From IMG/VR virus record IMGVR_UViG_3300021961_000116, positions 1 through 57,717 of that record: a stretch of DNA of 57,717 nt. One strand, given 5' to 3'. Below, piece by piece: positions 1,562 to 42,846 of this stretch (its first letter is position 1; each line of letters begins with the position of its first letter). The stretch is from a virus. The translations under genes were made by a program, and so were the position numbers. The notes under the pieces are model-generated. The model saw only the letters and a list, made by a program, of their open reading frames with translations. It was not told the origin of the DNA and made no database searches.

Positions 1562-2153
1562 GATGAGGTACGACCCTTTATGCAAAGATTCAGTTATAGA
1601 GGAATATCCACAATTAAAAATATATAAAAATCTAGAGGATCCATTTACAGACAAGTTGTTTAGATACGCTTGTTTAGTATACGATTCTAACAGCCCTATC
1701 TTTAGTATACTCCTAAAGGAAAGAAAATCACAAGCATTACAAATACTAGACATTAAAGATGTCGGAAGTGCTATCCAGAGTAATCAGTTAGAAGAGCTGA
1801 GGTGGGCTGTATCATTGTTCTTTACAGTTACTAATAACCCTGTCATTGAAATTTACGTTTCACTTGATGAGGCGTTTAGTAACCTGTTAGAGAAAGCAAG
1901 AACCAAACCTATGGAAGTAGATGAGGCTCAAGAAAAAGTAGCATATGAAGGTATCGCTAAGGCGGCTGAGAATGCATTTGAAATGTACAATAAATTAAAA
2001 ATTATACGTGAAGAATTTGATAAACAATTTGGGGAGTTTGATATTTTGGATCTGGTTAAACAAGGGGAGAAATCTAAACCTTTGGAGGAGAAGATAAACT
2101 TCGCTGAACGCAGAGCACAACGCAATGCAGAAAAAGAAGGTAAAAAGAAGTAA
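1542..2153 (+). CDS. hypothetical protein, 203 aa, basic C-terminus
   Basis: I chose ATG 1542 over ATG 1536 because of the GGAGG at 1531-1535. The N-terminal 120 residues look globular (alpha/beta). The C-terminal third is a charged helical or coiled-coil segment ending in a basic tail, RAQRNAEKEGKKK. Its stop overlaps the next start (TAATG). It sits two genes upstream of the large terminase, which suggests a role in DNA packaging or late regulation, but no family is recognised. Confidence 0.7.
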   Translation: MTVDTSKMRYDPLCKDSVIEEYPQLKIYKNLEDPFTDKLFRYACLVYDSNSPIFSILLKERKSQALQILDIKDVGSAIQSNQLEELRWAVSLFFTVTNNPVIEIYVSLDEAFSNLLEKARTKPMEVDEAQEKVAYEGIAKAAENAFEMYNKLKIIREEFDKQFGEFDILDLVKQGEKSKPLEEKINFAERRAQRNAEKEGKKK

Positions 2154-2641
2154 TGGACTTTGAAAAAAAGTTAAACCGATTTGAACAAAAGTATAAGAAG
2201 GAATACGAGATACGTAAATCGATAGAACGTAAACTTGCTGTTGCTGAGGTTAAGATTAAACAACTTAACAGCGTAAACAATGGAAAGAATATTGTAGATA
2301 TAACAACAACCATATCTGCTATACACGAGCTACGAAGAATTAATCGTAAACTAGATATATACCACGTGGCTACAATTACCTATGCAAAGGAAGTAGGTAA
2401 GTTTACTTCGGCACAATTTATGTCAAGGTTTCACTCAGGAAAGAATAAGTTCTATGAAGTTATTTCCCAAATGAGAGAGTACGGATACATAGATGCTGTA
2501 GAGGTAAGCTATAAAAGGAAAAGAGTTTATTTCTACCTTACAGATAAAGGGGAGAATTTATATACACGACTAGAAGGTGCTATCTATACAGCAAAGAAGT
2601 ATAGTAAAATTAATAGATTAAAAAATGGCAAAACGCAATAG
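2153..2641 (+). CDS. coiled-coil plus winged-helix protein; candidate small terminase subunit
   Basis: Residues 1-42 form a Lys/Glu-rich coiled coil. Residues 65-140 fit a winged-helix fold, with helices around VATITYAKEV, the recognition-helix-like KNKFYEVISQMREYGYI, and a wing KRKRVYFYLTDKG typical of MarR-type or replication-initiator wHTH proteins. The 3' end overlaps the large terminase gene by 17 nt. A DNA-binding, oligomerising protein directly before TerL is the classic position of TerS, so small terminase is the best guess. A transcription regulator is the main alternative. Confidence 0.55.
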   Translation: MDFEKKLNRFEQKYKKEYEIRKSIERKLAVAEVKIKQLNSVNNGKNIVDITTTISAIHELRRINRKLDIYHVATITYAKEVGKFTSAQFMSRFHSGKNKFYEVISQMREYGYIDAVEVSYKRKRVYFYLTDKGENLYTRLEGAIYTAKKYSKINRLKNGKTQ

Positions 2642-4631
2642 AGAAAAGATATATGGGGACTTTGAATATATTTTGCCTGTACAACCAGCTCTAAAAGATA
2701 TTATGAATAATGAGCTGTCTAAAAAGCAGCAGAAGTGGGAACGTACACCCTTACCTGATGGTTGGGATAACCTTGCCGTATCAGATCAGGAGCTATTCGT
2801 AGAAAAAGAATTCGATAAGATTGATAATGGTTTATGGCTAATGATTAATGGTAAGCCGTACTACCTAACCGGGAAACATTATTTCTTTTTACAATGGTGG
2901 GTGCTAGAGGATGGAACATACCCTGACTTTCGTGATGCCGATAGAAGACTATTTTATTTTTGGGATATCTGCGAGAAGGATGATAAATGTTTAGGGATGC
3001 TGTATATGAAGTTCCGTAGACGTGGTTCTTCTTCTGTTGCATCATCTATTGCTGCCTATATTGGTATCTCAGAAAAGTTTCAAAAGATTGGTATTGTTTC
3101 TAAGACAGGAGATGACGCTAGGATGATATTCTCACAAATGGTTGTCAATGGTGTTTATAACCTGCCTGACTTCCTTAAACCTACCGTTGCTGGTAATGAC
3201 AAACCTGTAAGGGAATTAATCTTTGCAGAGCCTCCTAAGCGTTCAAAAAAAGCTGATGGTACTACGACTAAAAAAACTACCACAGGACTGAATACAATTG
3301 TGTCGTGGAAGAACACCGCAGTTAACTCCTATGATGGTCAGCGTATGCGTTTTTTGTTTATTGACGAAACCGCTAAATGGTCAGCAGATGTAGACTTTTC
3401 AAAATACTTTGAGGTAGTAAAGACGTGCTTGACTAAGTTAGGTAAGCGTGTAGGCATTACTTACATTACGTCAACTGTCGGTGAGGTAGATAATGACAAG
3501 ACATCGTCAGGTAATAAAAAAGCAGGGGATGCCTTTAAAGTTATTTGGGAGAAATCTAATCCTAATAAATTATATAATGGGCGTACAGCCTCAGGCGTGT
3601 ACAGATACTTTTCTCCTGCATACGATGGATACAAGATGGATGAGTTTGGTTTCTCTTTAGTAGAGGAATCTAAGGTAGAACTTGAAGAGATCAGGAGGTC
3701 ATACATTGAGAATAATGATATTCAAGGACTAAACGAGCATATACGTCAGTTTCCATTTACTGAGGATGAGGCGTTATCATCAATGAGTGGCGTATGTCTA
3801 TTTGATGAGGAAAGGATTAGGGCACAAGAGAATTTTATTAAATTGCAGCCTACGCCTTTAATGAATATGTATGATTTAATTTGGGTAGAGTATGGTAAGA
3901 GTGTGAAAGCAGTCCCGGTACAGAATGGTAGATTTGAAATACTTCGTATGCCTAAGAATCCTAATGCTCAGAAATTAGAAATGCGTAAGATTAAGCCAAT
4001 GATGCAACATGAATATATTGCAGGAGCCGATCCATTTTCTTCTTCAGACTTTAAGGATAAGCGTGATGCCTCTGACGGATCACTTGTAATTATTAATAAG
4101 TATAACCCTAACGACCCGGAGAATACCGCAATAGTTGATGTGGTATACTTACATAGACCTAAGACGGTAAATGAACTGCATGAGGATTACTTAAAGGCGT
4201 GTGTGTTCTACTCGTGTGAGGTTAATACGGAAACAACACCATCTACAGTAGTCGATTGGTTTATTGAGCAGGGATTTGAAGGGTATTTGAAGGAAACTCC
4301 AGATGCTGCTATTCCCAGATCTAACTTTAAAAATACTAAAGTCACGCAGTCAGGTAAAAACAAGTATGGTGTATCAGGTCAGAATAAATTTGCCGCTAAT
4401 AGGATGAATGAGATTGCTCAGATGTTTATGGATGAGTTTACCGAGCATATCTATAGTTTAAGGCTACTTGACCAATGCAGAAGGTTTGATCCAAACAATC
4501 GTACAGCCTATGACGGATTCATGGCATTTGGCTATGCATTACTTGCGTGGCAGGATAGCGTTAAAAAGAAGGAAGTAGAGAAAAGAGATAAGCCTGTGCT
4601 TAGGATGTATAAGGTAGACCTTAATAATTAA
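2625..4631 (+). CDS. terL: terminase large subunit
   Basis: Packaging motor ATPase and headful/cos nuclease. The N-terminal ATPase has a degenerate Walker A (residues 129-137, KFRRRGSSS, the Arg-rich form found in many phage terminases without a canonical GKT) and a Walker B, FLFIDE, with D247 and E248. The C-terminal RNase H-like nuclease shows the expected acidic residues in GADPF (D469), NTETTP (E536) and YDGFMAFGYAL (D630). At 668 aa it is within the normal TerL range. It is the last gene of the left rightward unit and is followed at once by an intrinsic terminator. The portal gene lies 5.8 kb away, beyond a leftward cassette. Confidence 0.93.
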   Translation: MAKRNREKIYGDFEYILPVQPALKDIMNNELSKKQQKWERTPLPDGWDNLAVSDQELFVEKEFDKIDNGLWLMINGKPYYLTGKHYFFLQWWVLEDGTYPDFRDADRRLFYFWDICEKDDKCLGMLYMKFRRRGSSSVASSIAAYIGISEKFQKIGIVSKTGDDARMIFSQMVVNGVYNLPDFLKPTVAGNDKPVRELIFAEPPKRSKKADGTTTKKTTTGLNTIVSWKNTAVNSYDGQRMRFLFIDETAKWSADVDFSKYFEVVKTCLTKLGKRVGITYITSTVGEVDNDKTSSGNKKAGDAFKVIWEKSNPNKLYNGRTASGVYRYFSPAYDGYKMDEFGFSLVEESKVELEEIRRSYIENNDIQGLNEHIRQFPFTEDEALSSMSGVCLFDEERIRAQENFIKLQPTPLMNMYDLIWVEYGKSVKAVPVQNGRFEILRMPKNPNAQKLEMRKIKPMMQHEYIAGADPFSSSDFKDKRDASDGSLVIINKYNPNDPENTAIVDVVYLHRPKTVNELHEDYLKACVFYSCEVNTETTPSTVVDWFIEQGFEGYLKETPDAAIPRSNFKNTKVTQSGKNKYGVSGQNKFAANRMNEIAQMFMDEFTEHIYSLRLLDQCRRFDPNNRTAYDGFMAFGYALLAWQDSVKKKEVEKRDKPVLRMYKVDLNN

Positions 4632-24551: not shown

Positions 24552-27500
24552 ATGCCTGATAATATAGATTTATTATATGAAGCTTTAAAGAATAATCCTA
24601 CAATTAAAGGATTACCTGAAGATATAAACACATTCAGATCGGCCTTAAATACAGAAGGGTTACCCAATAAGTTATTTCAAGCATTAAAAGAAAATCCTAC
24701 TATTAAAGGATTACCTGAAGACTATAGTTCATTTGAAGGTGCATTAGGGTTAAAAAAAAAAGCTACTTCTACAGGGTTTGGGAGTGGGTTGGCTCCTTCC
24801 CCCGTTACTAGTTCTGCTTTCGCCCCTGTACCAGGTATGGGTACGTATAAAGAAAAATCTAAACCAGAAGAAGAGTCACCTTTCCAGTTTGGTAAACAAC
24901 TATTAGCTGTAGGAGCTTCTGGATCTAGAAGAGCAACAGCAAACGTATTAAGTATCCCTGAGTTTATATATGATGCAGCAGGAGCCCCATTTAGAAAAAT
25001 AGGGTTAGATGTTCCTAAATACGATGACCTTTCACAAGGCACTATAGCTAAATATGTTAATGATTATATCCAAGGTACAGAGAAAACAGTAGAACAAATA
25101 AAAAAAGATGCTAAAATAGACCCACAGGTAGAAAAAGGCATTATAGATAATATATCAAAAGGTAACTATAGTAAAGCATTTCAATCTGCTGGATTAGGTA
25201 TTGCTGAATCTTTACCTGCTATGTTTCTGATGGCTTTAACGCCAAGTGCAGGTGCTGGAGCAGGAATAGGAGGTCAGGTAGCTAGGCAAACATTTATGGC
25301 AGCTCCTTTTATGGCTGGTAAATACCAAGAAATTGCAGATGATCCAACTATGAGTGAGTCTGCTAAAATTATGAATTCTATTGTTAATGGATATGCAGAA
25401 ACAATATTTGAAGACAAGTTTGGTAGTTTAGCCTTAATTAGGGATGCTAAGAAAATAATGGCAAAACAAGGTATTGAAGCTGCTAAAGATTTTACTAAGA
25501 AAGGATTTATTGATGCTGTTGAGAAAGGGATGGAGAAATACTTCATTGTTACAGCACCAGTATTAAATGCAATTGAAGAGGGAGCTACTCAATTAACCCA
25601 AAACTTTTCATCTAAAATGACAGGAGAAAAACCTGATCTTGATTTATTAGATGGAGTACCTGAAGCTATGGCTCAAGGTGGAGCATTTGGTTTAGGTATT
25701 AGTGCAATCCCAGCAACAAGTGATGCTAAAAAATGGGTTAATAAAAAGTTATTATCAAATGTAGCTGTATCAGACAACAAAGACTTAATAGTCCCTGTTC
25801 TTATCCAAAAGATAAAAGATGGTGTTGATGCTGGTACTATTACTCAAGAGGAGGCAGATGCTGCTTTAAATGATTTAGATTTATTAGTAACTAATTCACA
25901 AAAAGTTCCGGCTAATATAAATAGGGAAGAAAAAGCTAATGCTGTTGAAATTTTAAACGATAGGAATCGGTTAGAAAATTTACTTGCTCAAAGAGAGGCT
26001 GCTGCTGCTAATTTAGATCCTGCATTCAAAGATACTAAAGCTACAGAAATAGCTGACATAAAAGCACAGATAGAAGAAAAGAATCAGTTACTAAAAAATA
26101 TTGGTAATGGTGAAGCTCCTGTAAGTGCAGAACAAGCAACTACAGATATAGAAGCTCAAAAAGCAGTAGAAGAATTAACAAATAAACAAACAGAAGATGC
26201 CACTAAAATCCTGTTGCCATCTGTTCCTGAGTTTGAAAAACAAATGGAAGAAAAATATGGTATAATATTAGATTTACTTGATTATAAGGGTGGAATTTTA
26301 CAATTATCAAAAATAATTGTTAATAAAGAAGATAGAGGAAGCGGTATTGGTAAAAAGGTAATGCAAGAAATTGTTGATTATGCTGATAAATTTGGTAAAA
26401 AAATAACACTAACCCCTTCAACAGATTTTGGGGCAACATCAGTAAATAGACTTAAAGCCTTCTATAAAGAATTTGGTTTTGTAGAAAATAGTGGGAAAAA
26501 TAAAGACTACTCTACAAAGGAAACAATGTATAGACAGCCTATTGATAATAAAAAAATAAACGAAACAACTAAACCAACAGAAAATGCCACTAAAATCAGC
26601 AAAGAGCCAATCACCCAAGGCGGTGAACAAGGCAGTATCGTTCAACGTGAAGGAGCTCAAGAAGGACAACCTCAAGCAGGGCAAAGAGAAGGGGGCACAG
26701 GGGAAACCACGCAGCCAGAAGCAGATAATCGCAATCGCCCTATCAGCAGCGAAGAAGAACAAAAAGTAGTAGTTGATACCAAACAACAAATTCAAAATTT
26801 TGGAGTAAAGAAAGATATGGTTGAGCCTGTAAATAATGTTATAGGCAATCTATTTGAAGGATTAAAAAAAGCTGGTCTTACTGCTGCTAAAAATATTGGC
26901 GAATGGGTTAATATTGGTAAAGGCGAAGAGAAGCCTTATTCATTAAAAATTAATGGTAATGATGTCCAAGTTAAAAATGTTAATGCAGAAGTAATAGATG
27001 GTTTTTATTCTCCGATTGAAAAAATAATAAATGACAGCAAACAAGATAAGCTTCCTACAAAACAATGGATTGAGAAATATGCTAATAGCGAAGAGGCTCA
27101 ATTTACTGGCTTAAAAGATTGGTTAGCTCAACAAGAGGGGTCTGTATCTAAAGCAGATATACAACAATTCTTAAAAGATAATAGAATTAATGTTGTTGAA
27201 GTGGTGAACAGACAATCACCTGACGTAAAAGAATCTGATTTAAGAGTAATATTTGACGGAGATGGTTTTAGTATTGATGCACCTGATAAAGGAGTTTCAA
27301 GAATATACGTTGGATTAGATGAACTTAGCATAGATTACAACGGTGAAAACTATAAAGAAGTAGAAGATGCTGCTATACAAGATGGGTTATCTCAAATAAG
27401 AAATAGTAAGCGAGGAGATAATACTAGATATTCTCAATATCAACTTGAAGGAGAAAAAGAAAACTACAAAGAGATATTGGTTACGTTACCACCTAAAGGA

Positions 27501-30500
27501 TTACCTGATGGATATGAAATTAAAAAAAGAGATTTAGGTAATGGAATTGTTTTATATAGAGCAAATGGAGATGGAATATCAACTTCTCATGAAAGTTATC
27601 AAGATGCAGAAAATGAGTTAAAATATAGAGCAAGAGAACTTTACGGAACAGGTAAATTAGGTGGGGCTAAATTTAAATCAACTCACTTTGACGAACTAGA
27701 TATTCTTGTTCATTTAAGAATGAATACTCGTACAGATTCAGAAGGTAATAAAGTATTATTCCTTGAAGAAGTACAAAGTGATTGGGGACAAATAGGAAAG
27801 AAAGAAGGGTTTAAGCAGGATTTTACAGCAGAAGAAAAAGAATTTTTAACATTAAGAGAATTATTATATAAAGGTGATTTATCAAAAGAACAGGGTGATA
27901 GATATGATTATCTATTTGATAAAGTTGGTGCATCAATAGTTAAAAATGTAAATAAAGGAAAAACCCCAACAGCTCCATTCGTAACCGATACAAATGCATG
28001 GACTAAACTTGGATTAAAAGTAGCTTTGAAAGAAGCAGTAAAACAAGGTGTTGATAAAATTGCTTGGACAACTGGAGAACAGCAAAATGAAAGATATGAT
28101 TTAAGTAAAAGTGTTGATTATGTAAGAAATAGTGGGAAAACTTTAAATGGAGATACATATATAGATATATCATTACCGGGTGGATTATTAAACCTTCATG
28201 TAAATGAAAAAGGAATTGTAACTAAGCAATTAGGTTCAATGGGGATGGTAGAGGCAGAAGGTAAAAGACTTGATGATATAATAGGAAAAGATATCGCAGA
28301 AAGAATTTTATTATCAGAAGCTAATACAAAACTTGAAGGTGAAGGATTAAAAATTGGTGGGAAAGGTATGAAAGGATTTTACGGCTCACCAACAGAAGGT
28401 AGTTTAGGTATAGTGGGTAATGTTGCTAAGAAGTTATTTAAACAGGAGCCAAAAACAACAGAAATAGAAATTAGTAGAACTGACCAATTTTCTGAAAGTT
28501 ATAATAGCGGTGCTTATACAATAGTTGAATATAACACAAGTAACGGGAAAAAAGAAAAGGCTTTTAATAATGAAGAAGATGCAGAAGAATTCAAAAAAGG
28601 GTTAATATCAAGGCAATTTATGACCCAATACTCTGTAGATATCACACCTGAGCTAAAAGCAACAGTAGGGGAAGGACAACCATTGTTTAAAGATGCAGAT
28701 GCTCAATACCGTATAGAATCAGGTAAGAATATAATAGAAGCAATAAAGAAGTTTAATGGTAAGCCTAAAGCAGTTATAGCCCTTACTCATGAGATTATGC
28801 ATCCAACAGTAGTTGCAATAATTGAAGGAGCAAAACAAGGTAATGAGATAGGCTTAAAGCATTCAAATACTATTATAGCAGAATATAATAAAGCTAACCC
28901 TGATAATCAAATTACGCTTGATCAGATGATGGCTGATAACGATGCATTTAAAGAAGGTAACACTACTGATGCATATCGTTCTATGCAAGAATTTATTGCT
29001 GAGAGCTGGGAGAAATATCATTATGAAGGTAAGCAAGGATTTAGTAAAGCCTTCCAAGAAGTATTAGATATTATTACAGAAGCATTTAGAAAGGTTTATA
29101 AATCACTAAAAGGTGATGAGCTTACTCCTGAATTAAAAGCGATGTTTGATGATTTATTATCTGAAGAACCTGAAGTAACCCAAGAATCTAAACAAGAACC
29201 TATTAAAAAAAGGGCATTTATAGATATCCAAGAGATTAAGGATAAATATCCTAATCTTTATAAATCATTAACAAATAAAAGTTTAAGGTATACTGGAGCT
29301 AATAAATTAACACTATCTAATATTAGGAATTTATTAGTGGAAGCAAGTCAAAAGTTTTTTAATAATGCTGGTTCTGCTACCGATTATTTAAATACGTTTA
29401 TTGATATTGAAAATATTCTTGAAACATTATATGAGCCTAATGCTGAAAATATAACAAAAGAACAATTTAAAAAAAGAATAGCTGAAAGTAAAGATTTTAC
29501 TAAAAATGAATTAGGGATATTTAATGCTTTAATAGATACATTGAATACTGACCAAATGCCAACTTATTTACTTGATCAGGAGTATATTAAAAGATTAAGT
29601 GGTAGGAGTAATGCAAACTTTTATGCATTTTCAAAAAATATTATTGTATCAAAACAGGCAAATGCATTTGTTCACGAAATAGGTCACTTTGCATATTATA
29701 ATATTTTATCTAAAGAAGATAGAATTAATTATTTAAAATATATGATTAGCACTACTTATGATACACCTAATTCAAAAGGCAAAAGCATAGAAAGTAGATT
29801 AGCAAAAACAAGTGATAAAAATAAAGGATTTACTACAAATGTAGCAGATAATTTTGGTGAATATTTTGCAGAACAATTTTCTCAATGGTATTTAAATAAA
29901 AAAGTATTTCCAAAAGATATTGAATATATTTTTAGAAAAGTTCAATATTTTCTTGCTAAGGTTATAGAAAAAATAATATCTGGTAAATATGTAGATGAAA
30001 ATCTTTCTGATTACTTTAATAAAATAGTTGGCGATATAGATAAAATTAGAAAAGAAAATAAACTTCTTTTAGAAGCAAAAGCCAAACCAGAAGTGCCTAC
30101 TGAACTTACCAAGCTAGAAGAAAAATATAACAAGGATAAAAAATCTCTTACTAAGAAAGAACTTAACGATGTTCTTGAGATTAAAAGAGAAAGACGTAAG
30201 AAAGCTATGGCTTCTCTTGAAAAGGGTAACCTTTCAGAAGAAGAAGTTGCAATCAAAAAAGCTGCTATGCAAAAGCTAACAGACACAATGGTTGAAATCA
30301 TTGCTCTTATTGATAAAGGTAAATTTAAAAAGGTAGAAGGAGATAAAGAGCCTACTATAAAACAAAAAATTAAAGCTGTTAATGAAGCTGGTACAACCAA
30401 AACAAAAGCTATGACTTTCTCTGAATATATGAGAGATAGAAAAAGATCTTTTGAAGAAGGATACAAGAAGGGTACTAAAGATAGAGCAGCACAAGAGCAG

Positions 30501-33500
30501 TATAGAAAAGCAATGCTTAATGTAGCTATAGAGTATTTAGCATCTAAGAAATTAGGTAAGTTAAAAGAAGCGGCATTAAGATCATTAATAAGAGCTGCTG
30601 CTAAGGTTTCTAATATGTCTAAGCTAGAAACTTTCATTAAGAGAGTTGACTTAATTATGGCTAAGGCTGATTTTATTGAAAAATACAATGAGGCTAAAAC
30701 TTTAAAGAAAGAATTAGATACGAATAAAAAAGGTGGTGCTACTCAATTAATACAAAGATTGAAAAACATTAATCTTGACTACCTACCAGAAAGTGGTATA
30801 GATAAAGTTATAGCAATTGCTAAGGAGCTTAATTCTAAACGCCCTGATATGTCTACAGTTATTCCAAATATGAAAGAAGTATTGGATCTTGAAGAGGCAG
30901 GCTTTAGAGAAGCTATGAGAGCTAACTACGGTGAGCTTGGATTACTTGGTGGCTCTATATCTAAATTCATGGACAATGAAGAGATTTATAAGAACTTAAA
31001 GAAATTAATTGAATACCAATTGATATCTAAAGAACAAGTTTCTGAAGTTGAATTAGAAAATGCTAAAACAGTATTAAGAAATAAACTTGAAGAAGCTTAC
31101 AAAAAGATAAAAGATTTTGTAGATAATAAAAAGACTATTGATAATCTAGGCGAATACTTAGATATTAAAAAAGCTATTAAGGCATATAACAGAACTGTAA
31201 GACAGATAGATCAAGTGATGCCTGAGTTTGCTCAGAAGTTTGAACTACTTACAGACGCTGACAATGAAATATCTCAACGCTTAGGCAAAGAAATTGAAAC
31301 TTCATTAAAAGAGTTTAAAGAGGAAGTAATTAAAGTATCATTAAATACTTCTGCTAATCTTAGAGAATATGCATTGTCTGATGCCTTTAAAGAAGAGTCA
31401 GGATTAAGCCCAGAATTAAATGAAATCTTATCTAACCACTTAGCAAACTTTGCTAATAATATGGATAGAGAAACGATGAATGATTTATCTGTGGAAGATA
31501 TTGCAGACTATACTTTCTTTGCAGAACAAGCATTACTTGGTTATATATCACCTGAAATCTATGAAACATATAGTAAGGTGGGTGCTATTAAAGCTAAGAA
31601 TGATACAATGCAGGATCTAGAAAGTGTAATGGAAAGCGATTCTAAATTACAAAGAGATATTGCTAAGATTAACGCAAATTATAAAGGTGCTAAATCAAAA
31701 GAAGATTTTGTAAAAATAATGACTGAATACAGAAAACATAATGTTGATTCATTCTTGGGTTCTGGAGCGGTTAGTTTATTCTATAATAATGTTTACTTCC
31801 CATTTGGTACTAACGTAACTAGAATGAGAGCTATTATAGCTGACTTAACTAGTGATTTTCTTAAACTAGATGATGAAATGAATGGTATTAGTTTATCATA
31901 TGGAATCCCTAGTCCTAAAATACTTGGTGGTAAAAAAGTTATTGCAGCAACTAAAATTGGTAAACTACTTGGGTCTGATAAATCTATAGAAGATGTTAAG
32001 AATACCATCATGATTTTATTGCAACAATTAGATTTTATTACTAATCTAGAAAATCCTGAAAAAGCAAAAGAAAAAGTTTATTTTGATGCATTTATAAACA
32101 ATAAAGAAAAGAGAGATGCTCTTATTAGAGGTGCAAAAGATGAACAAGGGATGAAGGATTTAATCAAAAGTTATGAAAATGCTATTGAAATTATTTCTAA
32201 ATTACAAAGTGCTATTAAAGATAAAAATAAAACACTTTCTGAAAAGGCGGCAGGATTAATTACAAGTAAAACTGCTGAAACTTTATCTAAAACTACAGAT
32301 GCGGGAGTTACTTTAGAAACTATTAGCGGAGTAGAAGAAATACTAAATGAATTAGCTAACTCAAATCCTGTTGTAAAAGCATACATAGATGTTATACGTA
32401 AGACAATATCTTCATTTGAAGCTTATACTGAAATGAATACAATGATGAAGGGTGAGCAATATTACTCTTTACCTAACTACATGGCTAGACAGTATGTTTC
32501 AGGAAATTTAAATACAGTAAGTACTTCGGATAAAACAGCTCAATTATTAAAAGGTTCAGAATTATTCCAAAGAATTAAGAAAAATTCATCTGCTACTTAT
32601 AGTCGTGAAGGCGATGGACTAAAACCTAGAATTATTAATCCTAAATCATCTTTAATGATGCACGCAAATGATGTCATGATGGAATACTCTTTAAAAGGTA
32701 TAATGGAGGCATCTCTTGATGGTATTGCTTTAGCTGAACAACAAGCTACAACAAAAGGGGAAAAAGACTTTTTAGCGGCTTGTAAAGAGTCTATGAATCT
32801 AATGTTAGAAACAGAATTTGTAACTTCTAAAACAGAAGGTGTTAGTAAAATGGCACTAGAACTTTTAAACTTACAAACAACATTACTTGTTGGTAACGCA
32901 CTTAGACAGCCTGCCGATTACGGGGGTAACCTTATAAAAGTAGGTACAAGTGTCGATGGGGCTAAAGTACTTATTAATAACATAAAGGAACAATTAGGAA
33001 CATTGCAATTACTTGAGAATGGTAACTCTAATTTAAAGGAATTACAAGAAAGAGATAAAGCTGCTTATGAATTAGCATCAATGCTTGGAGGAGAATTCCT
33101 TTGGGCTGAGTCAGAAAGAAAAGCAAGTCAAATATCTGGTAATATTAGTGGGGAACAAGTAATGGGTAATAAAACAATTAAGTTAGCATGGGCTGATAGA
33201 TTAATTGTATCTAATGTTTACTTGCCATTATTTATTAAATATTTTGAGCAATCTGCTAAGAAGAAATTTAATCCTAAAGAATTTAACGAAAATCCTCAAA
33301 AGTATTATTTAGATAATTTAAAAGCATTACAAACTGCAACTAGAGAAGCGGATAAATTTATAGCAAAAACTCACGTTTCTAAGAATCCATTAACTAAACC
33401 TGAAATTGTTAGTTTACTTGGGATGAAACTAAAAAGAGATGCTGTATCTACTAGACTATTATTTAGTTTAACAGGATATAATGCGAATGACTCTGAGGTT

Positions 33501-34319
33501 ATTAAATCAATTTTAATGGACTTGTATTATGGTAATGGTAATAGAGGCCTTAAATTAGCTCAATTAGCAGGAAGGGTATCAAGATCATCTGTATCAAATG
33601 TTGCATATATGGCATCATATAAAATTATATTTGGTACATTGTCAGTATTAATACAATCTGGAATTGGTTTCTTTGATGATGATGATGATAAAGAATTTGC
33701 TAAAGTATTATTAAAAGAGTGGGAGGAATTCTACCAACAATATTTAACTAAAGAAGGATTACAACAAGATCTATTAGGCTCTATTGCTACTATGTTAACT
33801 GGTCAATACCAAAATATAGTTAGACCTATTGTAAATGTTAGTTTATTTGCAGCTATGAAAGCAGGCTTATTAGGTAAAAACACTAAAATGAGCGAAGAGA
33901 AATATAAGAAGATTATTAGATCAACTAGATCAGCTAATTTCTTTACTAAGCAATATGCACCTAAATATGATGTACCAATGGTAATGGTAAATGAAGCAGC
34001 AGGATTAATTGGATTAAGTTATGTCGCATCAATGGCAGCTGAAAATGCAATGACTATTGGTAAAACATTATCAACTGAAGGTAAAGCTAAAAATATTGAC
34101 TTTATAGCAGCAACTACCGCTGGGTTACAATTAGCTAATGCATCGGCAATGTTAATGGGTGTAGGTTATGGCTCTGGAACATATAATAAGGTTAGTGACC
34201 AAGTTAGAAGTGTGGTTAGAGAGGAGCAAAGAAAACAGAAACCATCTAAAGTTCAATCTATACAATCATTATTAAGACCAAGAAGTACAATTAAAAAATT
34301 CAATCCACTAAAACCATAG
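24552..34319 (+). CDS. giant polyvalent-type virion protein, 3255 aa
   Basis: About 17% of the window. In order: a tandem repeat (residues 8-33 and 41-66, each with an NPTIKGLPED core); a hydrophobic segment near 210-255; a GNAT acetyltransferase-like domain (555-660) with RGSGIGK at 595-601; a Gln/Gly/Glu linker (676-740); a domain with HFDELDILVHLRMN, LFLEEVQSDW and WTTGEQQNERYD (about 985-1290) typical of 'large polyvalent protein' domains; two zincin motifs, HEIMH (1413-1417) and HEIGH (1708-1712); long coiled coils (about 1820-2300); and a helical, partly hydrophobic C-terminus. Such proteins are thought to be packaged and injected to counter host defences and start infection. No DFDID-type RNA polymerase motif seen. 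Confidence 0.8.
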   Translation: MPDNIDLLYEALKNNPTIKGLPEDINTFRSALNTEGLPNKLFQALKENPTIKGLPEDYSSFEGALGLKKKATSTGFGSGLAPSPVTSSAFAPVPGMGTYKEKSKPEEESPFQFGKQLLAVGASGSRRATANVLSIPEFIYDAAGAPFRKIGLDVPKYDDLSQGTIAKYVNDYIQGTEKTVEQIKKDAKIDPQVEKGIIDNISKGNYSKAFQSAGLGIAESLPAMFLMALTPSAGAGAGIGGQVARQTFMAAPFMAGKYQEIADDPTMSESAKIMNSIVNGYAETIFEDKFGSLALIRDAKKIMAKQGIEAAKDFTKKGFIDAVEKGMEKYFIVTAPVLNAIEEGATQLTQNFSSKMTGEKPDLDLLDGVPEAMAQGGAFGLGISAIPATSDAKKWVNKKLLSNVAVSDNKDLIVPVLIQKIKDGVDAGTITQEEADAALNDLDLLVTNSQKVPANINREEKANAVEILNDRNRLENLLAQREAAAANLDPAFKDTKATEIADIKAQIEEKNQLLKNIGNGEAPVSAEQATTDIEAQKAVEELTNKQTEDATKILLPSVPEFEKQMEEKYGIILDLLDYKGGILQLSKIIVNKEDRGSGIGKKVMQEIVDYADKFGKKITLTPSTDFGATSVNRLKAFYKEFGFVENSGKNKDYSTKETMYRQPIDNKKINETTKPTENATKISKEPITQGGEQGSIVQREGAQEGQPQAGQREGGTGETTQPEADNRNRPISSEEEQKVVVDTKQQIQNFGVKKDMVEPVNNVIGNLFEGLKKAGLTAAKNIGEWVNIGKGEEKPYSLKINGNDVQVKNVNAEVIDGFYSPIEKIINDSKQDKLPTKQWIEKYANSEEAQFTGLKDWLAQQEGSVSKADIQQFLKDNRINVVEVVNRQSPDVKESDLRVIFDGDGFSIDAPDKGVSRIYVGLDELSIDYNGENYKEVEDAAIQDGLSQIRNSKRGDNTRYSQYQLEGEKENYKEILVTLPPKGLPDGYEIKKRDLGNGIVLYRANGDGISTSHESYQDAENELKYRARELYGTGKLGGAKFKSTHFDELDILVHLRMNTRTDSEGNKVLFLEEVQSDWGQIGKKEGFKQDFTAEEKEFLTLRELLYKGDLSKEQGDRYDYLFDKVGASIVKNVNKGKTPTAPFVTDTNAWTKLGLKVALKEAVKQGVDKIAWTTGEQQNERYDLSKSVDYVRNSGKTLNGDTYIDISLPGGLLNLHVNEKGIVTKQLGSMGMVEAEGKRLDDIIGKDIAERILLSEANTKLEGEGLKIGGKGMKGFYGSPTEGSLGIVGNVAKKLFKQEPKTTEIEISRTDQFSESYNSGAYTIVEYNTSNGKKEKAFNNEEDAEEFKKGLISRQFMTQYSVDITPELKATVGEGQPLFKDADAQYRIESGKNIIEAIKKFNGKPKAVIALTHEIMHPTVVAIIEGAKQGNEIGLKHSNTIIAEYNKANPDNQITLDQMMADNDAFKEGNTTDAYRSMQEFIAESWEKYHYEGKQGFSKAFQEVLDIITEAFRKVYKSLKGDELTPELKAMFDDLLSEEPEVTQESKQEPIKKRAFIDIQEIKDKYPNLYKSLTNKSLRYTGANKLTLSNIRNLLVEASQKFFNNAGSATDYLNTFIDIENILETLYEPNAENITKEQFKKRIAESKDFTKNELGIFNALIDTLNTDQMPTYLLDQEYIKRLSGRSNANFYAFSKNIIVSKQANAFVHEIGHFAYYNILSKEDRINYLKYMISTTYDTPNSKGKSIESRLAKTSDKNKGFTTNVADNFGEYFAEQFSQWYLNKKVFPKDIEYIFRKVQYFLAKVIEKIISGKYVDENLSDYFNKIVGDIDKIRKENKLLLEAKAKPEVPTELTKLEEKYNKDKKSLTKKELNDVLEIKRERRKKAMASLEKGNLSEEEVAIKKAAMQKLTDTMVEIIALIDKGKFKKVEGDKEPTIKQKIKAVNEAGTTKTKAMTFSEYMRDRKRSFEEGYKKGTKDRAAQEQYRKAMLNVAIEYLASKKLGKLKEAALRSLIRAAAKVSNMSKLETFIKRVDLIMAKADFIEKYNEAKTLKKELDTNKKGGATQLIQRLKNINLDYLPESGIDKVIAIAKELNSKRPDMSTVIPNMKEVLDLEEAGFREAMRANYGELGLLGGSISKFMDNEEIYKNLKKLIEYQLISKEQVSEVELENAKTVLRNKLEEAYKKIKDFVDNKKTIDNLGEYLDIKKAIKAYNRTVRQIDQVMPEFAQKFELLTDADNEISQRLGKEIETSLKEFKEEVIKVSLNTSANLREYALSDAFKEESGLSPELNEILSNHLANFANNMDRETMNDLSVEDIADYTFFAEQALLGYISPEIYETYSKVGAIKAKNDTMQDLESVMESDSKLQRDIAKINANYKGAKSKEDFVKIMTEYRKHNVDSFLGSGAVSLFYNNVYFPFGTNVTRMRAIIADLTSDFLKLDDEMNGISLSYGIPSPKILGGKKVIAATKIGKLLGSDKSIEDVKNTIMILLQQLDFITNLENPEKAKEKVYFDAFINNKEKRDALIRGAKDEQGMKDLIKSYENAIEIISKLQSAIKDKNKTLSEKAAGLITSKTAETLSKTTDAGVTLETISGVEEILNELANSNPVVKAYIDVIRKTISSFEAYTEMNTMMKGEQYYSLPNYMARQYVSGNLNTVSTSDKTAQLLKGSELFQRIKKNSSATYSREGDGLKPRIINPKSSLMMHANDVMMEYSLKGIMEASLDGIALAEQQATTKGEKDFLAACKESMNLMLETEFVTSKTEGVSKMALELLNLQTTLLVGNALRQPADYGGNLIKVGTSVDGAKVLINNIKEQLGTLQLLENGNSNLKELQERDKAAYELASMLGGEFLWAESERKASQISGNISGEQVMGNKTIKLAWADRLIVSNVYLPLFIKYFEQSAKKKFNPKEFNENPQKYYLDNLKALQTATREADKFIAKTHVSKNPLTKPEIVSLLGMKLKRDAVSTRLLFSLTGYNANDSEVIKSILMDLYYGNGNRGLKLAQLAGRVSRSSVSNVAYMASYKIIFGTLSVLIQSGIGFFDDDDDKEFAKVLLKEWEEFYQQYLTKEGLQQDLLGSIATMLTGQYQNIVRPIVNVSLFAAMKAGLLGKNTKMSEEKYKKIIRSTRSANFFTKQYAPKYDVPMVMVNEAAGLIGLSYVASMAAENAMTIGKTLSTEGKAKNIDFIAATTAGLQLANASAMLMGVGYGSGTYNKVSDQVRSVVREEQRKQKPSKVQSIQSLLRPRSTIKKFNPLKP
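24573..24749 (+). repeat. tandem 33-residue repeat at the N-terminus of the giant protein
   Basis: Two copies about 99 nt apart encode near-identical segments: LYEALKNNPTIKGLPED and LFQALKENPTIKGLPED, each followed by a phenylalanine-containing helix ending SAL or GAL. They look like two small helical modules, possibly a capsid- or tail-docking signal. Confidence 0.75.
26584..26769 (+). other. nested out-of-frame ORF inside the giant gene, 61 codons
   Basis: In the +1 frame relative to the giant gene, ATG 26584 to TAG 26769 encodes a basic 61-aa protein that starts MPLKSAKSQ and ends RSQKQIIAIALSAAKKNKK. This resembles small Lys-rich phage proteins with an 'xxKQAIAIALSxAxK' C-terminus (DUF6496-like). 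The region is much more GC-rich than its surroundings, and none of the 61 codons ends in T. It coincides exactly with the Gln/Gly/Glu linker of the giant protein. It could be a true overlapping gene or a fossil small gene overprinted as a linker. Confidence 0.35.
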
Positions 34320-36595: not shown

Positions 36596-39500
36596 ATGAA
36601 TTTTTTATCTGTTTTATACGCAAAGGCGGGGATAATTGTAGATGGTGTTACGACACTAAACAATACAGCTACAGCATTAACGCCTGCAACTAATGATAAT
36701 TCTACCAACATTGCTACAACTGGTTATGTTAAGAATCAAAATTATTATCCGTATCCAACAGGTACAACTTCTCAGTATGTTAGAGGTGATGGCAGCTTGG
36801 CTACGTTTTCCCAAGGAGGGGGCGGGGGCGGATCATCGGTAAATTACTATTTGAATGGTAGTGTTTCTCAAGGGACGATAGGTGGAAATACTTATTATGA
36901 AATGAGTAAGAATGCTATAATAGGTACAAACGCTGATTTTAGTATTAATGCTGATGGTTATGTTGCTCAGTTTGTAACGGATGCGGGTGACCCTGCATTG
37001 TTAAATATACCGGGTGGTAACTGGAACTTTGAGATGTTTTTCTCTGCAAGTTCAGGTGGTGGTACTCCAAGTTTTTATGTAGAATTATATAAATACGATG
37101 GTACTACGCTTACCTTAATTGCAAGTGGTTCTACTGCTCCTGAATCTATTACAGGCGGTACAGCTACAGATTTATATATTACTGCATTAGCAGTCCCTAC
37201 AACTACCTTAACATTAACTGATAGGTTAGCTGTTAGGGTTTATGTTAACCATAGTGGTAGAACGATTACACTCCATACACAGAATGGACACTTGTGTCAA
37301 GTTATCACAACATTTACTACAGGCTTAACAGCGTTAAATGGGTTAACTGCTCAAGTGCAGAACTTTGCTGTTGGTACAAGTGGTAGTGACTTTGCTATTT
37401 CAAGTGTAACAGATACGCATACATTTAATTTACCTACAGCATCGGCTACTAAACGAGGGGCTTTAAGTTCTATCGATTGGTCGGCATTTGATGCGAAGGT
37501 TGACTTTGGTGACTTATCTGCTACATCTCCACTTAACTATAATGGTAGTGGGTTATTTAGTATTGCTCAATCAAGTACTTCAACGAATGGATATTTATCT
37601 TCTACTGATTGGAATACTTTTAATAATAAACAAGATGCTTTAACAAATCCTATCACAGGCACAGGAACAACTAATTTTATTTCAAAATGGAGTGGTACAA
37701 ATACATTAACTGATAGTTTGTTTTTTAGTGATGCAGATGTTGCTAAAACTATTAGAAGTGATGGATATAATGTAGGTTTATACTTAAATCTTGATACTAC
37801 TTTGTTTGCTTTAGGATATACTGAAACGGGGGATTGGGAAAATGAAAATATTGTTGGTTTTAAAGCAACAAATTATGTATTTACAATGGGCGATACGGGT
37901 TTTAATCAAGGTACGCATTTGTTTATAGATGACCAAAATAAAATTATCAAAACAGCAAGTAATAGTACAGACAAAGGTTTATATTTAGATTTTGCAACTA
38001 ATATTCATAAATTTGGTGTAATAAATACAAATGGAATTAAAGTAGGAATTTCAAATACTCAAATAGGAGATTATGATTTTGATGATACGGGAACAATTTT
38101 ATCAGTAAATAGAGGTACTGAAATCATCAAAACATCAAGCCAAGGTACAGACACAGGTTTGTATTTAGATTTTTTAAATGGTATTTCTAAATTAACAAAC
38201 TTTTCGGGTCAAGGCTTTTTTCAACAATCATATGAATCATCAATAGGGGATATTGATGGTAATGTTGAAGGTACTTCATTATATGTTAATGCGAGTGATA
38301 ATTATATTAAAACTAAAAGTGGTGGTTCAGACAAAGGTTTGTATTTAGATTTTGCAAATAATTATTATAAATTAGGAGATTATGATTTATCTAATAATGG
38401 TACTGCTATTGAAATAGATGATGCAAATAGTTATATTTCTACAAGAGGAAATTATGCTTTAAATGGTTTAGAATTAAATTGTTTAACTGAAGTTTATACA
38501 TTAGGAGATTTTAACGGAAATAGTAACAGTACAAAAGTTAGTGTAGATAATGTTAACCAAATTATTAAAACACAAAATCAAGGTTCAGTCAAAGGTATTA
38601 TTTTAGATTTTGCAAGTAATTTTTACCTTTTTGGTAATGCTGATAATGCTCCTAATCAATTAGCAATAAGTGGTAATGAATTAATTTTGGGAGATGCTTT
38701 TAATAATATTAATTCTACCAAATTTATTGTTAATGATAGTGTTCAAATCATCAAAACACAAAATCAAAGTACAGACAAAGGTTTGTATATTGATTATGCT
38801 GCTTATGATAATACCACTACTCATAATGTCCCTCTATTAGATGGTACTTATCAAAATTTTCCAAATGCGTTAGGAATATTTCAAAACAATGATTCTGTAA
38901 CTTTTTCAAATCATAATTTTTGGTCAACCGATGGTTTATCTTCTTTAAAATTTGGACAATATGTTGATACTGCATCTGATGGTGGTGGATATATACTAAT
39001 AAATTTAGATAAAGGTAATTGGGGGCATTTTGATGATAGTTATATGAATTGGAATCCCGAAGAAGGTTTTAATCTTATTAATTATAATAGTATTACTTTA
39101 AACTCAATCGCATATGATAACTCAAATAATTCGAGATTATTTTTAGATGGTTATTCAAGTAGAATAGAATTAAATGCAAATAGAACTAATTATAAAAACC
39201 TTACCACTACTGCAATTAATGCTTTAACTGCAACTGCAGTTGAAGGGGATGTTGTTTATAATAATACAACACACTTATTAAACTTTTATAACGGAACTGC
39301 TTGGCAAGGTGTTGGTACAATCACAGGCACAGGAACTACTAATTATTTACCAAAGTTTACTGGAGCAAGTGCTTTAGGAAATTCTTTAGTTTATGATAGT
39401 GGTACTGCAATAGGTATAGGAACTACTACTCCAAGTGAAATTTTAGATGTAAGAAATATAAATAGAGAAGCAACTAACGGAGAGTTTACTCAATTATTAT

Positions 39501-41608
39501 CTTCAACAAATAGTCAAGATGCAGGAATTGGTGCAAGTTTAGGTTTTGGTGGATTTACAAATGGAACTTCAGGTTATACAACTTTTTCTGGACTAAAAGG
39601 ATTTAAAGAAAATGGAGATGGTGGTAATACGGCAGGTACTTTAGCTTTTTACACAAGATTAAATGGTGGTGCAATTGCTGAAAGAATGCGTATCACATCT
39701 GTGGGTAATGTAGGTATAGGAACTACAAGTCCTGCAAGATTATTAAACATAAGCGGTGCAGGAACTGATGGTACTCAATTACAAATTAATGGAACAGTTG
39801 ATTCAGCAGGTATTAAATTCGTACCATTAACAGGAGATGCTTGGGAAATCCAAGCTAATGATTCAAGTCAGTTTTTTGTTTACAATAGAACAGATTCTGC
39901 TTATAGATTTTTAATTGATACTAATGGTAATGTAGGTATAGGAACAACAAGTCCAAACCATCTTTTTACAATAAATCAAACTACATCAGGCGGAACTTAC
40001 TTTGGATTGTATCAATCTTATGTGGATGGTAACGATTGGAGAAATTGGGTTATTGGAACAAATGACCAAGCATTTGGAGATTTTGTAATTAAACAATCAA
40101 ACGCAACAGGTGGTAATCCAAATTCAGCAGGAACAAATAGATTTTATATTTCAAAAACAGGTAATGTAGGTATAAATACAATTCCTGATGCAGGTTCTAA
40201 ATTCCAAGTTAAAATTGATACTAATCTAAATATAGCTTTTAATAGTGATTCAGGTATTGCAAGAATTAGTACTTTTAATGATGCAGTTACTTCGGTTGTT
40301 CCTTTAATAATTAATGCAGCAGATTTAAGATTTAATGCAAATTATGCTGAAAGAATGCGAATTACCGAAGGTGGTAATGTTTTAATCGGCACAACCACAG
40401 ATGCAGACTTTAAGTTAAATGTATTAGGTAATTCAAGATTTAGTGGTAATGCATTTGGAGAGAATGGAATAAATTCTTTTGGTTCAAATGGAGGAAATGG
40501 AGTTTATGCAGTAGCAGGTGGTTCAGCGGGTTCGGCATTTTATGGATATACAACAGATGCAAGTTCTTTTGGTGGTACTTTTGAAAATACAGGAGGAGGT
40601 ACTGCTTTAAGAGTATTAGGTAGTGCTTCATTCTCAAGTAGTTTAGTCGCAGTTGCATTAGGTATTAGTTCAACCGCTAACGCAACTAATCCTGTTACAG
40701 GTTCAATTGTTTCGGCAGGAGGATTAGGATTAGGTGGAGATATATTCTTACACCAAGCAGCGGCAAGTGGTCAAAACTATTCATATATTAAAACTGTTAC
40801 TACAACAGCCAATACTAATACCCTTATATTAGGTACTACCTATGGGTATAACACAAATGTTGATGCAGTTTCTTTTTATAATGGTACTGCAACTTTTTCA
40901 TCAACTATAACTGCTACTAATGGTATATTTAATAATGCAGCAGGTGGCTCTATTGCTTTTAACTATGGTGGGACAGATGATTGGATAGTTGGAGAAAATA
41001 CAGGTGCAGCAACAAGAGATTTTAATATCTATAATCATAATAGAACATCAATTGAGTTAAGTATAAGCAGAGCAAGTGGAGCTGCAACTTTTGTATCAAA
41101 CGTAACAGCTAATTCATTTATTAAATCAGGTGGTACATCAGCACAGTTTTTAAAGGCAGATGGTAGTGTAGATTCAAGCACATTTGTAGGTGCTAATTAT
41201 GGATATTCTGTACCAATGACCCAAACAGGAGATTGGATGGGTATGACTACATCAAGTGGTATAACGGGTTGGACTCACGTTATTAATATTGCTTGGGATG
41301 CATCTACTCAAAATAATTGGGTAAGTCAGATTGCATTTGCTGCACAAGCAGGGACAGGTGCTTATTATAGAACAACGGCAGGTGCAATTACAAGTGTTGG
41401 TTGGACACAATTAATAGACGGAAATAATATTGGAGGTTATTTAGCAGGATACTTACCTTTAACAGGCGGAACTATTACAGGTGACTTAACGGTAAACAAT
41501 AAGGTTTATGTAGGAACAAATGGTTGCTACTTCCAAGAAGTTTTAATTAGCGGTGTATACGAATTACAAGTAGTAGATTCAGCAGGTAACATAACGGTAT
41601 TATCATAA
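36596..41608 (+). CDS. long tail fibre protein, 1670 aa
   Basis: Gly/Ser/Thr/Asn-rich beta protein, the main host-recognition fibre candidate. The N-terminal part contains NIATTGYVKNQ, then a poly-Gly hinge (about residue 74, encoded by a G-run at 36815-36831). Around 280-380 are TKRGALSSIDWSAFDAK and GYLSSTDWNTFNNKQD fibre motifs. Residues about 455-735 hold five or more 60-residue repeats with a DKGLYLDF core. The C-terminal third has several NVGIGTTSP-type turns. The end (GYLPLTGGTITGDLTVNN) resembles a fibre tip. No S74 chaperone domain seen. It shares a TAATG junction with the next gene. Confidence 0.8.
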   Translation: MNFLSVLYAKAGIIVDGVTTLNNTATALTPATNDNSTNIATTGYVKNQNYYPYPTGTTSQYVRGDGSLATFSQGGGGGGSSVNYYLNGSVSQGTIGGNTYYEMSKNAIIGTNADFSINADGYVAQFVTDAGDPALLNIPGGNWNFEMFFSASSGGGTPSFYVELYKYDGTTLTLIASGSTAPESITGGTATDLYITALAVPTTTLTLTDRLAVRVYVNHSGRTITLHTQNGHLCQVITTFTTGLTALNGLTAQVQNFAVGTSGSDFAISSVTDTHTFNLPTASATKRGALSSIDWSAFDAKVDFGDLSATSPLNYNGSGLFSIAQSSTSTNGYLSSTDWNTFNNKQDALTNPITGTGTTNFISKWSGTNTLTDSLFFSDADVAKTIRSDGYNVGLYLNLDTTLFALGYTETGDWENENIVGFKATNYVFTMGDTGFNQGTHLFIDDQNKIIKTASNSTDKGLYLDFATNIHKFGVINTNGIKVGISNTQIGDYDFDDTGTILSVNRGTEIIKTSSQGTDTGLYLDFLNGISKLTNFSGQGFFQQSYESSIGDIDGNVEGTSLYVNASDNYIKTKSGGSDKGLYLDFANNYYKLGDYDLSNNGTAIEIDDANSYISTRGNYALNGLELNCLTEVYTLGDFNGNSNSTKVSVDNVNQIIKTQNQGSVKGIILDFASNFYLFGNADNAPNQLAISGNELILGDAFNNINSTKFIVNDSVQIIKTQNQSTDKGLYIDYAAYDNTTTHNVPLLDGTYQNFPNALGIFQNNDSVTFSNHNFWSTDGLSSLKFGQYVDTASDGGGYILINLDKGNWGHFDDSYMNWNPEEGFNLINYNSITLNSIAYDNSNNSRLFLDGYSSRIELNANRTNYKNLTTTAINALTATAVEGDVVYNNTTHLLNFYNGTAWQGVGTITGTGTTNYLPKFTGASALGNSLVYDSGTAIGIGTTTPSEILDVRNINREATNGEFTQLLSSTNSQDAGIGASLGFGGFTNGTSGYTTFSGLKGFKENGDGGNTAGTLAFYTRLNGGAIAERMRITSVGNVGIGTTSPARLLNISGAGTDGTQLQINGTVDSAGIKFVPLTGDAWEIQANDSSQFFVYNRTDSAYRFLIDTNGNVGIGTTSPNHLFTINQTTSGGTYFGLYQSYVDGNDWRNWVIGTNDQAFGDFVIKQSNATGGNPNSAGTNRFYISKTGNVGINTIPDAGSKFQVKIDTNLNIAFNSDSGIARISTFNDAVTSVVPLIINAADLRFNANYAERMRITEGGNVLIGTTTDADFKLNVLGNSRFSGNAFGENGINSFGSNGGNGVYAVAGGSAGSAFYGYTTDASSFGGTFENTGGGTALRVLGSASFSSSLVAVALGISSTANATNPVTGSIVSAGGLGLGGDIFLHQAAASGQNYSYIKTVTTTANTNTLILGTTYGYNTNVDAVSFYNGTATFSSTITATNGIFNNAAGGSIAFNYGGTDDWIVGENTGAATRDFNIYNHNRTSIELSISRASGAATFVSNVTANSFIKSGGTSAQFLKADGSVDSSTFVGANYGYSVPMTQTGDWMGMTTSSGITGWTHVINIAWDASTQNNWVSQIAFAAQAGTGAYYRTTAGAITSVGWTQLIDGNNIGGYLAGYLPLTGGTITGDLTVNNKVYVGTNGCYFQEVLISGVYELQVVDSAGNITVLS
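37944..38800 (+). repeat. array of about 180-bp repeats in the tail fibre gene
   Basis: The core ACAGACAAAGGTTT-GTATTTAGATTTT recurs with small changes at about 37967, 38147, 38327, 38585 and 38771; a more diverged unit lies near 38460. Most spacings are close to 180 bp (60 residues). Each unit encodes I-[IK]-T-x-(S/N)-(Q/G)-x-T/S-D-K-G-L-Y-L-D-F. The array suggests lengthening of the fibre shaft by unequal recombination. Confidence 0.75.
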
Positions 41609-42087
41609 TGGGATTATCAACTACATATAAATTAAATACAAATAGGCAGACTTGGCAAGATAATGATGTTAAATCAGATTTTGACAATGTAATAGGTACA
41701 TTCCTTGTATCAAATTATAATAGTTTGATATCAGGTGATTGCCCTATGACTTCTTTTAAAATAAAAGTTGCATATAGACAGGGCAATACAAATGTACTTG
41801 ATGCTGAACTATATGTAATGCTTGTAGACTTAGGAGCAGGCATTCAATTTTTGCCAAGTGGAGTGGATGTAGCTAATGTTTTCCCTATATTAACAGGAGC
41901 TGATATGCTAAACTATCCTCATCTTATATTTAGTGATAACCCTGATATTGTTGCATATTTTTATATTACATTCGTTTATAATTCTACAGTACCTGAAGGG
42001 TACCTTTATGATATTATTATACATAGCCCAAGATTAATGGATGGGGTAATGATTGCAGAGGTTTACAATTATACACTATATCAATAA
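41608..42087 (+). CDS. hypothetical fibre-associated protein, 159 aa
   Basis: Beta-rich with a jelly-roll-like strand pattern, no motifs. It starts on the TAATG of the fibre gene and is followed by two similarly sized beta proteins linked by TAATG or near-abutting junctions. Probably fibre-tip or receptor-binding subunits; no family is recognised. Confidence 0.65.
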   Translation: MGLSTTYKLNTNRQTWQDNDVKSDFDNVIGTFLVSNYNSLISGDCPMTSFKIKVAYRQGNTNVLDAELYVMLVDLGAGIQFLPSGVDVANVFPILTGADMLNYPHLIFSDNPDIVAYFYITFVYNSTVPEGYLYDIIIHSPRLMDGVMIAEVYNYTLYQ

Positions 42088-42449
42088 TGCCTACTAATTT
42101 AATAAGATACAACGGGGTCAACGACCCTCAACAAAATATAGTTGAGATAGATTTATCGGTTATTCCAACTGATTCATTATTTACTATTGATATATTATAT
42201 TCGTGTAGGAATTTACAAAATTCAACAGCAGAACAAACAGCAATATATAGGTATATTATTTTTTGTGTAAAATATGGTATGGGAAGCTATGCTCTTATAA
42301 AATATACCAAACTTGTAGATTTTGGATGGAACCTATCATTATATGATTTATTAATCCCATCTCTTATTCTTGGAGATACATTATATTTAGATTTAGTAAG
42401 TCTTAATGGTGATACAACTGTTTTATTTGATTGTAAATTAGAATATTAA
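42087..42449 (+). CDS. hypothetical fibre-associated protein, 120 aa
   Basis: Beta-rich (EIDLSVIPTDSLFTIDILYS...), coupled to the preceding gene by TAATG. It resembles its two neighbours in size and strand content, so the trio may come from an old duplication, but sequence identity is low. Confidence 0.6.
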   Translation: MPTNLIRYNGVNDPQQNIVEIDLSVIPTDSLFTIDILYSCRNLQNSTAEQTAIYRYIIFCVKYGMGSYALIKYTKLVDFGWNLSLYDLLIPSLILGDTLYLDLVSLNGDTTVLFDCKLEY

Positions 42450-42450
42450 T

Positions 42451-42846
42451 ATGTATAGCTATAGAAAACAAATACAAGTATCTGAAGGAATTTTGCCATT
42501 TTCCCAACAAGTTATTAATACGTTAGATTTATCAACAATTAATCTACAAAATAAAATAGCAGATGTGGAGATAAAGGCTACCTTGTATGATTATGCTAAT
42601 GTGTTATCTTCTTTATTATATTATCGTAATGTTCAAGTAGTAGACCCTTCTGCAACCCCTCAATATACTAACAATTTCCCTTCATCATTTTTAGTAGTTC
42701 CTGACCCATCTTCAGATGGTGCATATTTTGATAGCAATGCTTATTATATCCAATCAACCTCAACTATTAGAATTGTAGGGTACAATAATTCAAGTAACCC
42801 TGTTAATGTATTGTGTATAATAGACTATAAAATAAACTTTTATTAA
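42451..42846 (+). CDS. hypothetical fibre-associated protein, 131 aa
   Basis: Third small beta-rich protein of the series, starting 1 nt after the previous stop. No cysteine or catalytic motif. Likely an appendage subunit by context. Confidence 0.6.
   Translation: MYSYRKQIQVSEGILPFSQQVINTLDLSTINLQNKIADVEIKATLYDYANVLSSLLYYRNVQVVDPSATPQYTNNFPSSFLVVPDPSSDGAYFDSNAYYIQSTSTIRIVGYNNSSNPVNVLCIIDYKINFY

Follow-up and report, generated by a model that had tools for sequence, protein, structure and literature searches.

Background

The occurrence of multiple MPTases and GNATs in polyvalent proteins, which are encoded by phages and by conjugative elements, has already been described, and these proteins have been proposed to be a delivered multi-enzyme cargo that acts on the host (Iyer et al. 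2017, PMC5512222). A separate body of work concerns internal overlapping genes of viruses, typified by the E gene within D of phiX174 and by the overlap in the spacer of the hepatitis B virus polymerase, and also supplies the criterion of phylogenetic spread for dating overlapping frames (PMC8227390). The giant protein analyzed here is a polyvalent-type protein with predicted MPTases and a GNAT, and is as such of an already known kind. A limited literature search recovered no description of a DUF6496 gene nested within such a gene, of its antiphase in use as a linker, or of sibling phages that differ in their entire enzyme load.

The carrier phage and the position of the giant gene

The window, i.e. 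the whole stretch of DNA that was analyzed, comes from a virus; the record comprises 57,717 bp and encodes a portal and virion structural proteins. The portal shares 27-30% identity with its counterparts in the Cellulophaga phages phi38:1 and phi40:1 and in the Flavobacterium Elemovirus phages; the carrier is a podovirus related to phi38:1 and Elemovirus, and infects bacteria of the Bacteroidota. A search of a phage collection at megablast sensitivity recovered no DNA relatives. The two ends of the window lie about 5 kb apart on the longer record of a sibling phage, indicating that the window is probably incomplete. The giant gene is the last of the structural module, directly after the portal, capsid and tail genes. 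This gene order matches that of phi38:1 and Elemovirus, in which the same place is occupied by a last large gene annotated as a structural protein (gp101, 1691 aa, and gp20, 3694 aa, respectively). Both of these proteins show little direct sequence similarity to the giant, the match to gp101 being marginal (E 0.03), and a limited literature search found no mention of gp101 in published proteomics. By analogy with these syntenic giants annotated as structural, delivery of the giant together with the DNA is plausible.

Domain architecture of the giant protein

The giant gene (24552..34319, on the + strand like all features described below) starts with ATG and runs without internal stops for 3255 aa. 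An earlier note, made from the sequence alone, had proposed this frame as a polyvalent-type protein; its codon periodicity and its homology to the giant of the sibling phage indicate that it is real. The polyvalent-type reading likewise holds, as the protein matches DarB-like, PLxRFG and LPD23 giants, contains an acetyltransferase domain and has conserved residues in the first of its predicted zincins. Single-sequence scans recovered no close protein relatives of the whole giant, nor of the two zincins taken together as query.

The protein begins with a tandem repeat of two copies (aa 5-67; 24564..24752), followed by KKK; this repeat, also seen previously, was recovered by self-alignment with a score of 93 as against a maximum of 33 in shuffled sequences. 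Many giants in this position in other loci (L028, L033, L066, L083, L102, L104, L041, L069, L051, L063 and L006, among others) have an N-terminal two-copy repeat, often followed by KKK, and phi38:1 gp101 shares this design. The repeat sequence itself is wholly different between phages (e.g. DEFGIP, KPVIVADDGIN, DPLGIL, WTPPxDAVLV and longer types). Outside the giants, the searched stretches of these phages contained no further pairs, only a few isolated short matches to the repeat motifs. With a shared design but not a shared sequence, the repeat is a candidate packaging or docking signal. The region that follows (the N-part, aa ~113-545; 24888..26186) was found by profile search to be common to other giants and to a separate gene in locus L258.

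The next domain (aa ~560-663; 26229..26540) is a GNAT acetyltransferase, as the earlier note had suspected from the RGSGIGK motif at position 595, which falls inside both the Pfam and the PHROG matches. The Pfam scores are modest (PF13508 with E 1e-5, just below its cut-off; PF00583 with 20.9 bits against a cut-off of 20.7), whereas the match to PHROG 10691 is strong (E 1e-26). The acetyl-CoA loop, R/Q-x-x-G-x-G/A, is present as RGSGIG at 595, and tblastn links the domain to DarB-like giants. Directly behind it lies an acidic linker (aa 677-740; 26580..26771), largely the antiphase reading of another gene as described below; thus, the GNAT domain precedes the linker and the other enzymes follow it.

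Beyond the linker is a domain (aa ~818-1380; 27003..28691) marked by EEVQSDW at 1072 and WTTGEQQNERYD at 1172, which had been noticed before and is indeed common to other phage and plasmid giants. It has no Pfam match, and its relatives are encoded by 561 among the first 600 candidate stretches from IMG/VR; several of them run on into a zincin resembling zincin 1 of the window. The domain (loci L148-L227) is very common in phage giants, and the giant of Dolichospermum phage Dfl-JY45 (L002:5868-13031) possesses two domains of this type along with four ART-PolyVal stretches. The segment-wise AlphaFold modeling advocated earlier was informative for aa 800-1550 (mean pLDDT 76) and yielded an unusable model for the zincin 2 region (pLDDT 47.6). 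A PDB sequence search with the region spanning this domain and zincin 1 returned no match, and Foldseek alone gave no significant PDB match for the model of the domain, with 24 matches to viral giants. Upon structural realignment, the matches listed were GNAT or GNAT-like chains (best Z 9.7, rmsd 3.2 over 143 residues), and the model thus suggests a probable divergent GNAT-like fold. EEVQSDW marks a widespread unnamed phage domain, which may be a second effector with the acetyltransferase fold.

Two HExxH sites follow at the positions given earlier: HEIMH spans 1413-1417 and HEIGH, 295 residues further on, spans 1708-1712; for the composition of the giant, 0.005 such sites are expected by chance. 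The putative zincin 1 (aa ~1385-1545; 28704..29186) belongs to a family in which the HExxH and a downstream glutamate are invariant across 13 aligned sequences, corresponding to H1413, H1417 and the proposed third ligand E1480. Its part of the aa 800-1550 model consists largely of helices, and the stretch preceding the HExxH helix is weak; no zincin stood among the structural matches listed for that model, an absence that carries no verdict on the fold. In the second region (aa ~1547-1826; 29190..30029) the HExxH (H1708, H1712) and a proposed third ligand, E1770, are conserved in MW202828 and L088 only, and an alignment search found one distant locus; it is a putative zincin-type peptidase region. 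The giant thus carries several effector-type domains in one chain, namely the GNAT, the EEVQSDW domain and the two HExxH regions. The remaining C-part (aa ~1941-3169; 30372..34058) is common to the sibling and to four other fused giants in profile and BLAST searches, and ends in hydrophobic segments at about 3016-3041, 3089-3107 and 3141-3162, in agreement with the hydrophobic C-terminus reported at the outset.

Replacement of the enzyme load in a sibling phage

The sibling phage, IMGVR_UViG_3300042541_000805 (G001; loci L009, L091-L094, L098 and L228), is about 91-98% identical in DNA to most of the remaining window, with lower values toward the far end, and its tail protein is 91% identical to that of the window in the best segment. 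Its giant is largely different, with 28% protein identity in the N-part and 43% in the C-part, and no match to the GNAT, the EEVQSDW domain or either zincin region of the window. The single HExxH of the sibling giant, HEVGH at 1555, belongs to a different block that is common to L104 and MW202828. Thus, the enzyme-bearing middle of the giant has been replaced wholesale between near-identical viruses. The second stretch replaced between the two is the tail-fibre region (36596-42823), variable at 37.7-42.8 kb. Otherwise dissimilar giants also have cargo blocks in common, such as Elemovirus gp20 and L105 (57% over 850 aa).

A DUF6496 gene nested within the giant gene

Inside the giant gene a sole stretch is well conserved, a 192-bp island at 26581-26772 with 86% DNA identity to the sibling. 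The earlier note was drawn up without the out-of-frame gene at 26584-26769 and without the replacement in the sibling giant. The island contains, in the +1 frame, a small gene of 61 codons (26584..26769) with the product MPLKSAKSQSPKAVNKAVSFNVKELKKDNLKQGKEKGAQGKPRSQKQIIAIALSAAKKNKK, which is basic (pI 10.6) and matches DUF6496 (PF20106) with 29.8 bits against a Pfam gathering cut-off of 24. Between sibling and window, 18 of the 19 changed codons are non-synonymous in the frame of the giant, while the +1 frame is identical at 61 of 64 positions. What keeps the island conserved is evidently the DUF6496 gene that the giant gene encloses in its +1 frame.

The same nesting in the same relative frame was recovered in 11 IMG/VR contigs, which are partly non-independent, since DUF6496 identity reaches 95-97% in some pairs; about 35 further loci possess DUF6496 as an ordinary standalone gene. 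Across the 11 contigs the mean identity is 71% in the nested frame and 45.5% in that of the giant, and the summed differences at positions 1, 2 and 3 of the nested codons are 834, 758 and 1460. The frame of the giant is open in all 11, whereas with random synonymous codons for the nested gene no more than 0.02% of draws for each contig leave it without a stop. A codon-periodicity scan of the whole gene in four pairs of giants showed a strong shift only around the nested region, along with a few weaker windows elsewhere in which the positions were nearly equal. These computed comparisons show dual coding of the nested DNA, with selection on both frames. The 20 bases upstream of the 11 nested start codons, which also code for the giant, contain 62% A as against 40% in the giant gene. 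Such A-rich bases are compatible with translation initiation in Bacteroidota.

In the pairs L101/L105 (aa ~924-1013 of the L101 ORF) and L102/L104 (aa ~766-855 of the L102 ORF), conserved DNA with lowered third-position change seemingly starts before the nested start codon, and perhaps represents a regulatory element. An antisense ORF at 26439-26795 was ruled out as the conserved frame (55/63 identical as against 61/64 for the +1 frame of the + strand). Diversity-generating or directed mutation was likewise rejected as the source of the E/K and G/R changes in the giant, since these are changes at third positions of nested codons.

DUF6496 had no match in INPHARED phages at E 0.01 or in the phi38:1 and Elemovirus records, and a scan of a genome collection recovered a single short contig of a Flavobacteriales MAG; a limited search found no literature on the domain. 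As a guess from its small size and basic pI, its product is perhaps nucleic-acid-binding.

Probable origin of the fused giant

Profile searches provide clues to how the nested arrangement might have arisen. In L258 the N-part profile matched a separate gene of 755 aa (E 1e-12) and the C-part profile a separate gene of 1273 aa (E 2.4e-8); the two are separated by one cargo gene and by a standalone DUF6496 gene that immediately precedes the C-part gene. L099 has its nested DUF6496 toward the end of an ORF of 760 aa, which is followed by separate genes, the first of them ferritin-like by eye. Split and fused forms thus agree in the order N-part, cargo, DUF6496, C-part. The separate genes of L258 in this order suggest that a fusion across DUF6496 probably gave rise to the giant, the direction being read from synteny and from weak-to-moderate profile matches. 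By the criterion of phylogenetic spread (PMC8227390), DUF6496 appears to be the older frame and the linker of the giant the newer one. More generally, giant polyvalent phage proteins might form by read-through of a gene in another frame, with the engulfed DUF6496 gene continuing to work, its antiphase serving as a hinge and the dual-coding block staying fixed while the surrounding enzyme load is exchanged; we consider the case for this evenly balanced.

Functional implications and alternative explanations

With the anatomy, the dual coding and the load replacement established computationally, we infer packaging, substrates, processing and the order of fusion in the following scheme, which we consider fairly likely: the giant would be a virion-cargo polyvalent protein with an exchangeable enzyme load, fused across a still-selected DUF6496 gene in dual-coding DNA. 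The conserved N- and C-parts would carry as this load the GNAT, the GNAT-like EEVQSDW domain and the two zincin-type peptidases. Separate N-part, cargo and C-part genes would have become one reading frame across the small DUF6496 gene. Since selection continues to act on DUF6496 in the +1 frame, this DNA codes in two frames, and the acidic linker would be a by-product. The giant may be packaged and enter the host with the DNA. There, at least one zincin might free the domains of the giant or cleave proteins of the host, and the GNAT might acylate host proteins. The transcript of the giant would also yield the DUF6496 protein, basic and of 6.6 kDa, which perhaps binds nucleic acid as a virion component or as an early protein.

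Several other readings of these data deserve consideration. If the giant were simply an ordinary polyvalent protein and the +1 ORF no gene, the island might have been kept for the linker or for the DNA itself, for instance as a recombination site, and its being the best-conserved stretch in a replaced gene is what would be expected of a recombination anchor. This is highly improbable, given that it is the third positions of nested codons that change, which preserves the DUF6496 protein while altering the linker, that the Pfam match exceeds its cut-off and that standalone homologs exist. A rather better case, albeit still an unlikely one, can be made for descent of the split forms from an ancestral giant, in which DUF6496 was nested first and freed later; the shortened 760-aa ORF of L099, still holding the nested gene, fits this history. 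However, many unrelated loci have DUF6496 as a gene of its own, and their range extends well past the phages with fused giants, which makes the overlap unlikely to be its first state, even if it could have been freed again in this one lineage.

The scheme of a cargo acting on the new host also has to be set against a role of the zincins in virion assembly, where they would process the giant or head proteins before packaging. The P1 protein DdrB, which is processed before packaging (PMC5512222), offers a precedent, and the giant gene closes the structural module. We regard this role as doubtful, slightly less so than the ancestral giant: near-identical phages have swapped their enzyme load but kept their assembly genes, which suggests a role in an arms race over a fixed role in assembly.

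The giant locus thus offers a testable route by which very large phage effectors could be assembled from separate genes. It also illustrates that a gene nested in another gene can escape notice if the longest frame alone is read.

Comparison with known systems

The giant is closest to the polyvalent, DarB-like and PLxRFG giants (PMC5512222), which are likewise very large late-gene proteins combining a GNAT with more than one zincin-type MPTase, the MPTases of the giant being predicted ones. It differs from them in the dual-coding DUF6496 gene, in being much replaced between siblings and in possessing the EEVQSDW domain, which is absent from Pfam. DUF6496 in turn is normally a separate gene, whereas the copy in the window is enclosed by another gene, whose +1 frame it occupies. 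The overlap is complete and on the same strand, as in phiX174 E/D and the overlaps of hepatitis B virus, and in the polymerase spacer of the latter a de novo frame serves as a domain-joining linker, much like the linker of the giant (PMC8227390). Unlike these viruses, the window represents a tailed dsDNA phage, in which the small gene is apparently the older one and the de novo frame would be the linker of a giant fusion.
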